A model generated the notes under the pieces. It was not told the DNA's origin. It did no database searches and worked only from the letters and a program-made list of their open reading frames with translations. The translations under genes were made by a program, and so were the position numbers. From Bradyrhizobium roseum (GTDB taxonomy: Bacteria > Pseudomonadota > Alphaproteobacteria > Rhizobiales > Xanthobacteraceae), in NCBI RefSeq assembly GCF_030413175.1, contig NZ_CP129212.1:1860001-1924000 (forward strand): a stretch of DNA of 64,000 bases, read 5' to 3'. This document shows, one piece after another, positions 7,355 to 9,914 of the stretch (positions are counted from its first letter, which is position 1; every line of letters starts with the position of its first letter).

Positions 7355-8047
7355 ATGCAGCGAGTCTCGGGCGTCCCTGGGTGGGTCGTCGCAGGAATAT
7401 TGATGGCGGCATTGAATGTGCCGGTGTCCGCCCCCGGTCAGCAGGCGGCAGCCCGGCCGCCCTTGGCGGTGCCTGGTGCCTTGGCGCCGGATTCGCCGCC
7501 ACGCGCAAGTTCGACGCTGGAGCGCTATTTCGCGAGTCTGCACCAGGATTTCGTCCAGCTCGACGCCGATCTCGACGGAATGATCACGCAGCGCGATGTC
7601 GATCTTCACGTCCTGATGGAGACCGTCGTTTCGCGCACTTTCGCTCTGCAGTTTGTTATGGGCTACGATCTCGATGGAGATGGCGCGGTGACGGAAGACG
7701 AAATCCGTCGGGCCATGAAATACCGGCTGAGATCGGCGCCGAACGATCCGGAAGCAAAGATCAGCGATACCGTTCGATCGACGATGGCGCTGGATACCGA
7801 CGGCGACGGCAAGGTCAGCGCCTCCGAAGCGGGTAAGTTCACATACCCTGATATGAAGAGAGATTTGGGGTTTCCCGAACTGCCAGCGTGTGCGCGCCGA
7901 ATATTAATGCTGGAATCCCGCACGAAGGGAGAAATCGCATGGAGCGATTACGAGGCCGCGGGCGAAAAACTTTTCCGCAGGATCGACACCGACAAGGACG
8001 GCAAGATCTCGCGGAGGGAACTCGACGATTGTCGCGGTGGGCCTTAG
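7355..8047 (+). CDS. Secreted EF-hand protein with four Ca2+-binding loops
   Basis: This 230-residue protein has an N-terminal signal-like hydrophobic stretch (about residues 8-25), a Pro/Ala-rich linker, and four EF-hand loops. The loops are DADLDGMITQRD (70-81), DLDGDGAVTEDE (105-116), DTDGDGKVSASE (147-158) and DTDKDGKISRRE (211-222). The first loop ends in Asp instead of Glu, and the other three are canonical. Periplasmic calcium binding is inferred, and no enzymatic domain is visible. CGGAGGA precedes the ATG at 7355. The last codons (GGTGGGCCTTAG) run into a duplicated fragment of the ccrM 3' end. Confidence 0.85.
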   Translation: MQRVSGVPGWVVAGILMAALNVPVSAPGQQAAARPPLAVPGALAPDSPPRASSTLERYFASLHQDFVQLDADLDGMITQRDVDLHVLMETVVSRTFALQFVMGYDLDGDGAVTEDEIRRAMKYRLRSAPNDPEAKISDTVRSTMALDTDGDGKVSASEAGKFTYPDMKRDLGFPELPACARRILMLESRTKGEIAWSDYEAAGEKLFRRIDTDKDGKISRRELDDCRGGP

Positions 8048-8092
8048 CCCGCCGCCATCTCGGAACGGATTTCCGCCGCAGTCGCCGGTCAG
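8040..8092. repeat. Copy of the ccrM 3' end (direct repeat, left)
   Basis: These 53 bp match 9859-9914, the 3' end of ccrM, with a few mismatches and single-base gaps. Read on the minus strand, they still encode [10 protein letters not shown] followed by a stop (TAA instead of TGA), with a synonymous Ser codon change. The two copies are direct repeats bracketing the orphan gene at 8089-9771. Confidence 0.85.
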
Positions 8093-9771
8093 GGCGTGGC
8101 GCTCTCGTTCCGGACGAATGGCAGCAGTGGAGGCGCCGTTAGAATGGCGCTGGTGTCGAGCCGCATTGTGCCGCCGCTCTTGAAGCCTGCGCCGGACGAT
8201 CCCTTACATGGTGGCACCGATCTGCGCCTTGCCAATTTGTCGGCTAGGTCGATGTCGCCTTCAGAATCGTAGATGGCGTCGTCCGGCTTTATGCCGAGAA
8301 TGTCCGCGAAGGCGTCGGAGTGCGCGCGGTGATAGATCCCGCCTCCGGTCCCCGCGAATTGGACGCGGCTGGCTTCGACGCCGGCAATTCCGGTCTGGCT
8401 GTCTTCCAGCACGGTCAACCGCTCGATGCAGGATGCCGCGCCGGTGAAGACGAACACGCGCGGATCCTGATTGCGCAGCACGATATCGAGCGCGCCGAAA
8501 TCTTCGGGGACTCGGATTTCGACCGCCCGCGCCGGCCGGGGCAACAGCACCTTTGTCTCCCGGCCGCCGTTGAAGTCGACAATGAACACCCGTCGCGCCG
8601 GATTGTCGGTGCTGCGCCAGATCGGCTTGACATTGTCGGCACAGACTTGAAGCCATTGGCCGGCAAAGCCGAGATTCGCGCATTTGTCCGCCGGGATGGT
8701 GCTGTTGGCACAGCCCTCCATCAGCGCCTCGCGGTACCGCAGCAACCGCGTCACCTTTTCACACCAGTGCGTCCCCTTCCTGACAGTCATGTTGGTCGAT
8801 GTCGCGGGCGTGGACGCCAGGCGTTTCATGGTGGTGCGAAATGCCGGATCGGGCGGGGCGGCTGCGATCAGGTCGAGCGCGCGCCTTGTATCCTCGGGCC
8901 GGCCCGTCGTGCTGAGGCCCTCGACCATCTCGCGCAGGGCTTCGATGTTCAGGGCGAATGGCGGTATGATGGCGAGTTCGTCGATGCCAAGGGCAGAGAG
9001 GACAAACGCGCCCGGTTCGGGGGCGGCAACGTCCGGGCCGCTCACAACGGCACGCCGCGGGGTTGGCCGCGGAACCAGGGACGGACCGACCAGCCAGTGG
9101 AAACGCATTTCAGGAAAGGCGACGAATTCATCGTAGGCGACAAGCTGTTCAGTATCGCCGGCGCGCAGTGCCAGCTCATACGTCCAGACTGCCTCGGTTT
9201 TATAATCCTTCCGATTTGTCGTCCACGAATGCGGCGCGACTCCGGCCTGCGTGTACAGGATCAAGCCGTCGCTGGGTGCGCTTTCGACGGGAACGGCGGT
9301 CGCGCAACTTCGCCATCCCGTCGGCACGATCATTTCGTCGCGCTCGCTACGGTCTTTCGCACAAGTGTCACGAGGGCCAACTTCCATCCGCCAGATTTTC
9401 TGAGGCCGGGAATTCGAACCCTTGACGGCGTAGACGTCGAACAGCCCGGTCTCGGCGAGGAAATACACGAACGGTTCCAGCCGGTTGCCCGGGCTGCGGA
9501 CGATCAGAACGCGAGGGCGGTCAGCCGCAGTGACTTTCACGCGCGGCCATGATGCAATTTCCGTCGTTCGGTTTGCCACGGTCTGTTTGGTTTGCAGCCA
9601 TTGGGCGCCATAATAGCCCGGCATCAATAGCCCACCCGCCAGCAGCAACCATCCGGACGGTTCGTTACGGACGAGCTTCCGACATCCGAAAATGAAGGCG
9701 ACTAGGCTTAGCGCGCAGAGGAGCAGCCAGCGCACCAAGACAAACAAGATCATTTCAAAGGTAATGGGCAT
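8089..9771 (-). CDS. Orphan membrane-anchored protein, unknown function
   Basis: I do not recognise this 560-residue protein. It starts with two hydrophobic segments (about residues 6-28 and 40-55), so it is probably anchored in the inner membrane. A large, apparently extracytoplasmic part with scattered Cys follows (for example CAKDRSERD, CANSTIPADKCANLGF, CADN, CIERL), which could form disulfides. No catalytic motif is clear. It lies alone between two direct-repeat copies of the ccrM 3' end. Its last four bases overlap the left copy, and its base composition looks somewhat less GC-rich than its neighbours. Acquisition as a small insertion is likely. Confidence 0.7.
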   Translation of the reverse strand: MPITFEMILFVLVRWLLLCALSLVAFIFGCRKLVRNEPSGWLLLAGGLLMPGYYGAQWLQTKQTVANRTTEIASWPRVKVTAADRPRVLIVRSPGNRLEPFVYFLAETGLFDVYAVKGSNSRPQKIWRMEVGPRDTCAKDRSERDEMIVPTGWRSCATAVPVESAPSDGLILYTQAGVAPHSWTTNRKDYKTEAVWTYELALRAGDTEQLVAYDEFVAFPEMRFHWLVGPSLVPRPTPRRAVVSGPDVAAPEPGAFVLSALGIDELAIIPPFALNIEALREMVEGLSTTGRPEDTRRALDLIAAAPPDPAFRTTMKRLASTPATSTNMTVRKGTHWCEKVTRLLRYREALMEGCANSTIPADKCANLGFAGQWLQVCADNVKPIWRSTDNPARRVFIVDFNGGRETKVLLPRPARAVEIRVPEDFGALDIVLRNQDPRVFVFTGAASCIERLTVLEDSQTGIAGVEASRVQFAGTGGGIYHRAHSDAFADILGIKPDDAIYDSEGDIDLADKLARRRSVPPCKGSSGAGFKSGGTMRLDTSAILTAPPLLPFVRNESATP

Positions 9772-9858
9772 GGCGGAGCTAGCCTAACAAACGCCGTTGA
9801 AGTTTCACGGCGTGTCCAGGCAATGACGCAACTTAGGGTAAATAAAGTTGCAAGCCGC

Positions 9859-9914
9859 GGCCTTCAGCCCGCCGCCATCTCCGAACGGATTTCCGCCCGC
9901 AATTCGTCGATCAG
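9859..9914. repeat. ccrM 3' end (direct repeat, right)
   Basis: This is the right-hand copy of the repeat at 8040-8092. It covers the ccrM stop codon and its last codons. With the left copy it frames about 1.8 kb containing one orphan gene, as attL/attR-like repeats do. Confidence 0.8.

Follow-up and report, generated by a model that had tools for sequence, protein, structure and literature searches.

Displaced copies of the ccrM 3' end in Bradyrhizobium suggest an insertion spot beside a conserved DNA methyltransferase gene

Introduction

The Islander report (PMC4383910) describes islands at the ends of tRNA and tmRNA genes in which the incoming DNA restores the target gene and the displaced fragment marks the far end, and candidates without an integrase or shorter than 2 kb are rejected there. 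In the type VI secretion system (T6SS) clusters of Vibrio cholerae, according to PMC5361080, effector–immunity modules are displaced sequentially: a new module comes to lie beside a conserved anchor and shifts the older 3' parts further downstream, so that arrays build up. The proposal made there is a process resembling homology-facilitated illegitimate recombination, which has been reported in Acinetobacter, Pseudomonas stutzeri, and Streptococcus pneumoniae (cited in PMC2884548). The present study concerns a 64,000-nt stretch (hereafter the window) of the 7.32-Mb chromosome of Bradyrhizobium roseum (genome G000; contig NZ_CP129212.1, positions 1,860,001 to 1,924,000), in which the 3' end of ccrM, an adenine DNA methyltransferase gene, occurs twice, on either side of a gene for a 560-residue protein. 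An original prediction made from the sequence alone had read this arrangement as a likely small integrated element flanked by attL/attR repeats.

The ccrM locus shares with the islands at tRNA ends a restored target gene and a displaced fragment, but differs in that no integrase was found with a tyrosine integrase profile, the inserts are approximately 0.4–3 kb long, and the crossover point is not constant. In the T6SS clusters, it is the effector gene or its domain that is moved out of place, and immunity genes persist in full, whereas at ccrM the methylase stays the same, only its last 24–88 nt are left behind, and the cargo is of unrelated kinds. PMC5361080 also mentions the orphan 3' regions of rhs genes. 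Homology-facilitated illegitimate recombination, with one homologous and one illegitimate end, offers a further likeness, though it is experimental there and inferred at ccrM. It reportedly also occurs in Escherichia coli conjugation (PMC3240628). The rhs orphan 3' regions are strings of displaced 3' gene ends, and the Rhs 3' regions are variable, whereas the displaced ccrM ends look like non-functional scraps. Among the open-access titles and abstract openings listed, none presents the 3' end of ccrM as a place of insertion.

Results

The minus strand of the window carries, in order, ccrM, the 560-residue gene, and the second copy of the ccrM 3' end, beyond which lie a convergent EF-hand gene, the gene hyp, and a glutathione S-transferase (GST) gene. 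As originally predicted, the right copy (9859..9914, minus strand; blastn) is the present 3' end of ccrM. The left copy (8040..8092, minus strand), with the EF-hand gene directly beyond it, was recovered by blastn, a repeat search, and a model that scores the final 30 nt of ccrM. The predicted match of approximately 53 bp proved real: in a blastn search of 8034–8100 against the whole own chromosome, the copies were 88% identical over 53–56 nt (E 4.6e-10), and at E 0.001 this query matched itself and 9859–9914 and nowhere else; a longer query at E 0.01 counted a third chromosomal place. The ungapped core of 44 nt (86%) is the longest direct repeat within 7000–11600. The left copy encodes the 10 residues named in the original prediction and differs from the right one in its Ser codon (TCC versus TCG), its stop codon (TAA versus TGA), and single-base gaps further in. 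In the 30-nt model it scored 46.2, the best opposite-strand score in any locus being 9.6. A chance repeat was rejected on the E value and on a control with 57-nt pieces of ccrM. Direct repeats flank the insert and one copy completes ccrM, as in an integrative element at a gene 3' end, and the single open reading frame (ORF) expected between the copies is there (8089–9771, minus strand, 560 aa, no family match). The suggestion that the two 3' ends came from different lineages, in contrast, is weak. Among 139 ccrM loci drawn from the matches listed, which lean towards the closer relatives of the window, the window's own ccrM end was the second-best match to the left copy, and thus the two ends need not stem from distant lineages.

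In G263, the nearest sampled genome, ccrM has a single end and is followed directly by hyp and GST. The window holds 2.7 kb more than G263, comprising a truncated EF-hand gene and the 560-residue gene. Sequence comparison makes it very probable that added DNA separates ccrM from its older neighbour, and the left copy has the look of a stranded ccrM end; to this extent the idea of an insertion stood, while the attL/attR system as first formulated did not. The simple empty site that had been expected, with the EF-hand gene beside ccrM and one copy of the repeat, is not the arrangement of G263, which is without both genes. Close relatives do not all share the gene order and both repeats, as G263 with neither gene and one ccrM end demonstrates. 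An old tandem duplication of ccrM with further remnants was rejected as the source of the left copy, because the 6 kb downstream hold no match of 40 bits to any other 57-nt piece of the window ccrM.

Displaced ccrM ends are a recurrent pattern, not confined to the window. Among the 139 loci, at least 2 kb of downstream DNA was present in 125 and at least 5 kb in 121, approximately 10 held little, and twelve had been chosen for carrying EF-hand or 560-residue genes; two placeholder stretches (L199 and L217) were left out. When the last 150 nt of each genome's own ccrM were compared with up to 7 kb downstream, copies were found, besides that of the window, in G157 (88 nt, 94%), G183 (29 nt, 100%), G104 (24 nt, 87.5%), G258 (54 nt, 94%), G115 (54 nt, 96%), and G095 (50 nt, 96%). 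With the last 57 nt and a threshold of 50 bits, 6/125 ccrM loci, the window included, carried a copy, compared with 0/92 for hyp and 0/108 for GST. As a control, both strands of the downstream DNA, to a distance of 6 kb, were searched in the 125 loci with 19 consecutive 57-nt pieces of each own ccrM. The other 18 pieces matched in 0/125 loci on either strand at 50 bits, and at 40 bits only the piece adjoining the ccrM end matched, in G157, where the copy is 88 nt long. In the 30-nt model, six copies scored 37.9–47.8, far from the opposite-strand maximum, and G181 (14.9) and G104 (11.8) were borderline. The window ccrM end was also searched in 265 genomes of the genus, and 64 of them, by-eye picks with at least two matches plus G183 and G104, were rechecked. 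A second strong copy among these 64 occurred only in G000, G095, G115, G157, and G258, each time near ccrM. In other genera of the family, 1/20 loci had a copy, namely G296 (53 of the 57 nt searched, 91%, 1.24 kb downstream), in which the copy is approximately 70 nt long.

The cargo between the two ends consists of hyp in G115, G258, and G095 (and, with a decayed copy, in G155), an EF-hand fusion gene in G183 and G104, the 560-residue gene in the window, genes recognized by eye in G157, including lipocalin-like and zinc-ribbon-like ones, and in G296 an unrelated 371-residue gene with no family match above cut-off. An ancient ccrM end behind every hyp gene was considered and rejected, because the 60 nt that follow hyp have a median similarity equal to that of the control (19.0 versus 19.2). 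A p of 0.05 was reached by these 60 nt in 16% of 104 loci, compared with 1% of 110 for GST, and G155 has the clearest decayed copy.

The DNA after the G104 copy matches the DNA after the true ccrM in G050, G058, G213, and G201, with the match starting 10–16 nt past the copy and 7–22 nt past the true stop (for G050, 81% over 245 nt, starting at 13 and 12). Similarly, the DNA after the G157 and G155 copies matches the end of the EF-hand gene that follows the true ccrM in G183, starting 29 and 25 nt past the copy, respectively, and in both cases 26 nt past the stop. For G183, the DNA past the copy matches G023, G252, and G186 from a later point (72–75 versus 81–90 nt) in nearly equal register. 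In-register matches past the G115 and G258 copies, which by eye run into genus repeats, were left uncounted. In G338, the sibling of G296, ccrM runs directly into an oxygenase-like gene (named by eye), which in G296 lies past the copy. The G296 insert, absent in G338, is 1.24 kb long, has 45% GC in a locus of 62–65% GC, and contains one 371-codon gene. The present ccrM end of G296 is AT-shifted, mostly in synonymous codons, and the stranded end agrees better with the sibling. The 371-residue protein (L284:5864-6979) is matched by 60 other database proteins, those covering most of its length being approximately 32–51% identical.

One site-specific attL/attR system, as the original prediction had it, was not supported. 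The inner edges of the copies lie 24, approximately 29–33, approximately 50, approximately 71, and 88 nt from the ccrM stop, and because the copies begin at different ccrM positions, they have no common core, though hyp and the window's gene have one edge in common. With a homemade profile built from nine tyrosine integrases of the window genome, and with serine recombinases not searched, the 139 loci, including the window, yielded no tyrosine integrase on the downstream side of ccrM; the sole hit, in G050, lies on the other side of ccrM. Nor was an integrase detected inside or adjacent to the repeats of the window, where the 560-residue ORF had no Pfam match and the tyrosine profile was negative. 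Away from ccrM, the 64 rechecked genomes held no free copy of the ccrM end except a 21-nt exact match in G230, and viral contigs gave 0 exact matches to a degenerate ccrM-end pattern. Against a single att system there is also the position of the 560-residue gene, which lay beside ccrM in 3/3 genomes.

The proposed anchor, ccrM (9864..10997, minus strand), encodes 377 aa and was characterized with Pfam, NCBIfam, and a genus search. The protein has the N6_N4_Mtase domain (2.2e-64) with a C-terminal RAMA domain (4.4e-19), the composition of CcrM, and it matched the NCBIfam CcrM equivalog at 1.8e-185, yet under the cut-off (615.8 versus 830 bits). A CcrM match was present in 264/265 genomes of the genus, and ccrM identity between nearest sampled genomes was mostly 92–97%, as expected of a long homologous anchor. 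The window ccrM is 96.6% identical to that of G263, a whole-gene difference of 3.4%, and the last 90 nt differ by 4%.

The 560-residue gene (8089..9771, minus strand), identified as an ORF without an assigned function, has its stop codon at the inner edge of the stranded copy. Two long N-terminal helices of the protein probably span the membrane. The protein had no match in Pfam, NCBIfam, PADLOC, or PDB sequences, and a fold search with its structural model, which is of low confidence (pLDDT 65.7), gave no match at E 0.001. At the same threshold, 20 database proteins matched, and the organism-named ones are from Bradyrhizobium or Xanthobacteraceae. Full-length versions occurred in 3/265 genomes of the genus, and five more genomes had short weak matches. 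In all three (the window, G179, and G195) the gene adjoins ccrM, which, for the genus genomes searched, answers the question of whether it always sits there. In G179 and G195, it directly follows ccrM and is followed by hyp and GST, without the EF-hand gene. The spacer between ccrM and the 560-residue gene in the window (9772..9863, minus strand) looks by eye like that of G179 from the ccrM stop onward. The window genome has a single match to the protein. Residues 401–473 have a weak likeness of approximately 70 residues to an EF-hand fusion protein (L090:3731-5377; hhalign E 7.8e-4, probability 25%), and the genes for both proteins are found beside ccrM. A decayed stretch resembling the ccrM end precedes hyp in G181 (L129, 88 nt past the ccrM stop), which lacks the 560-residue gene, and in G179 (L099, by eye), which has that gene before the stretch; this may be an old insertion that was later lost.

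Of the outer neighbours, the EF-hand gene (7355..8047, plus strand; Pfam, genus search) abuts the left copy and, as a correction to the original prediction, is truncated. Counted from ATG it has 230 codons; it lacks the C-terminal half that its relatives have, and its reading frame stops inside the stranded copy. Full-length relatives have 538–686 codons, the short second EF-like gene of G104 left aside, compared with 258 in the longest reading here. EF-hand matches were found in 26/265 genomes of the genus, and the 12 strongest beyond the window's own sit within approximately 4 kb of ccrM; the weak matches of G023 and G255 (34 and 37 bits) were left out of the EF-hand loci. EF-hand genes matched the NCBIfam models for XopAW, a deiodinase-related family, and lanmodulin, each below cut-off, and these matches were taken as common EF hands only. 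The EF-hand tree interleaves loci that have hyp inside (G155; G138 and G105; G182 and G220) with loci that have the EF-hand gene inside (G275, G104, G167, and G183), which by our own count would amount to at least three changes of gene order. In G104 (L093:2146-4981), two EF-hand-fusion-like genes lie in tandem, the second without a Pfam family.

The small membrane-protein gene hyp (6760..7164, minus strand) is the usual next neighbour of ccrM, and GST (5904..6656, minus strand; Pfam) is the outer neighbour, both assignments following the order in the loci of the genus. Among the 125 loci with at least 2 kb downstream, the order was ccrM–hyp–GST in 77 and ccrM–GST in 14. In G115 and G258 (L136, L128), hyp is 98–99% identical over most of its length, whereas ccrM, 100–500 nt before its stop, is only 87–92% identical, a sign of recent exchange across the border.

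Discussion

Our preferred reading, to which we give about even chances, is that the left repeat is the old ccrM 3' end, displaced as DNA with a fresh ccrM end and the 560-residue gene entered. Linear DNA of a related cell would pair with the resident ccrM along the long conserved sequence, and homologous exchange on the ccrM side would leave the methylase gene whole, as the intact ccrM suggests. The far end, having no partner, may then be joined within the last 24–88 nt of the resident ccrM at brief stretches that match by chance, for example the CTGA common to the end of the 560-residue gene and ccrM; the junctions themselves are visible, short matches at the joints were seen by eye, and the edge positions vary. 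The last nucleotides of the resident ccrM and its former neighbour would be left beyond the newcomer, a step supported by the in-register comparisons in other genomes. In the window, the former neighbour would be the EF-hand gene, from which the second half, as far as the stranded copy, has probably disappeared. The incoming DNA would not need to bring an integrase. One-sided homologous recombination with a short-homology joint would thus account for the variable edges, the intact ccrM, the small inserts, and the linkage between the 560-residue gene and ccrM. The spot may be hit repeatedly because a highly conserved anchor gene borders a dispensable variable stretch, and the interleaving in the EF-hand tree fits repeated entry of newcomers beside ccrM. 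That several related bacteria carry the same scar around other genes suggests that genes can be gained at the ccrM end with no evident insertion enzyme.

Several observations weigh against this displacement by one-sided recombination. In a donor-tract comparison of the last approximately 90 nt of ccrM, G296 showed an excess (23% versus 4–15% elsewhere) and G183 a slight one (10% versus 2–9%), and G179 differed from G180 by 11%, but G180 also differed from G181 by 9%; no donor tract was seen in ccrM of the window, G157, or G104. The divergence of G296, confined to approximately the last 90 nt, would be explained at least as well by a short tail carried on an element. As the copies resemble the ccrM of their own genomes, close donors or later gene conversion would be needed. 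The DNA beyond the window's copy had no match after ccrM in the other loci, which we take as due to the abutting EF-hand gene having lost its second half, and the stranding step for the window itself is thus drawn by analogy. The 560-residue gene and, in several genomes, hyp have their inner breakpoint at one and the same position, CTGA/TGATCGACG, though this edge may reflect the natural end of hyp, whose sequence in many genomes is GGCTGATC or GGCTGACC. An interleaved tree would equally result if EF-hand genes had moved from one lineage to another. At a loose threshold (E <0.01), the ccrM end matched in 16/139 loci on the plus strand and 8 on the minus strand, and six internal 150-nt pieces matched in 24, 6, 2, 4, 9, and 5; at this threshold the ccrM end is not special, since internal pieces and the minus strand match comparably. 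Furthermore, the 6/125 loci are not a random sample, because G157, G183, and G104 were fetched for their EF-hand genes, and G115, G258, and G095 may represent a single event.

The G296 tail is among the observations that would also be expected of mini-elements lacking an integrase, which would use the ccrM 3' end as attachment site with a recombinase supplied from elsewhere, so that the repeats would be attL and attR. The architecture matches targeting of a 3' end with the target gene restored, the AT shift and mostly synonymous changes of G296 affect the last stretch of ccrM only and accompany an insert of low GC, and one inner edge is common to hyp and the window's gene. We nevertheless consider such elements unlikely, given the absence of a common core among the five edge positions, the negative result with the homemade tyrosine integrase profile, and the near absence of free copies in the rechecked genomes and viral contigs. 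Rearrangement within the lineage, in which unequal crossover or template switching put a ccrM end behind a gene already downstream, would explain why the left copy is so near to the own ccrM, and the short CTGA match together with an EF-hand gene cut where the copy starts is what a single joint event would give. The routes would be a tandem duplication of the ccrM end and the gene, after which the second copy of the gene disappeared, or filler copied from a template at the site of repair. However, the in-register older flanks past the G104, G157, and G155 copies point to insertion, as does the low-GC insert of G296 that its sibling lacks; the single match to the 560-residue protein in the genome gives no sign of a second copy, and there is no reason to expect that filler should reach exactly to the stop codon every time. 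Such a rearrangement, too, is in our estimate improbable as the source of the pattern.

Exchange between lineages does occur at this locus, as the contrast between hyp and ccrM in G115 and G258 indicates, and an ordinary two-sided homologous allele replacement could be imagined, with the repeat being a chance or functional sequence, for example a common terminator. A two-sided exchange leaves no stranded end, however; the E value and the 57-nt-piece control make chance unlikely, and the copies decay, with a stop codon in G157 and gaps in the window, hence giving no sign of function. This explanation is accordingly very improbable. A speculative extension, which we regard as decidedly unlikely, makes the ccrM 3' end a permanent docking site at which cassettes of one gene arrive in Xanthobacteraceae. 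Every cassette would carry or acquire a portable ccrM end, and newcomers would always come in beside ccrM, with older arrivals moved further outward; if this were true, the gene order past ccrM would record arrivals, akin to integron arrays but with no integrase in the array.

Displacement of the resident ccrM end by one-sided recombination would suggest how single genes join a chromosome at a housekeeping gene, rather than a toxin locus, and leave a scar that can be read. With the help of stranded gene ends, the sequence in which genes were gained could be worked out, and island finders that require an integrase or at least 2 kb, such as Islander, would miss insertions of this kind. A survey of 745 ORFs, drawn from 41 stretches of G000, G115, and G183, left as downstream end copies of at least 50 bits that paralogues or repeats did not explain those of the window ccrM and of thiC. 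The latter, in G000 (L234:11938-13696; C1:6050001-6070000), is a stranded copy of the last 50 nt of thiC (84%), 1.66 kb downstream. The DNA past this copy and past the true end matched none of eight relatives, one of which ends within thiC, and gave no empty-site confirmation. The copy suggests that the process is not bound to one recognition site, and hints at a wider, unannotated route of gene gain at the 3' ends of conserved genes. The spacer in front of the thiC copy holds no convincing gene and has 52% GC, compared with 64% in thiC.

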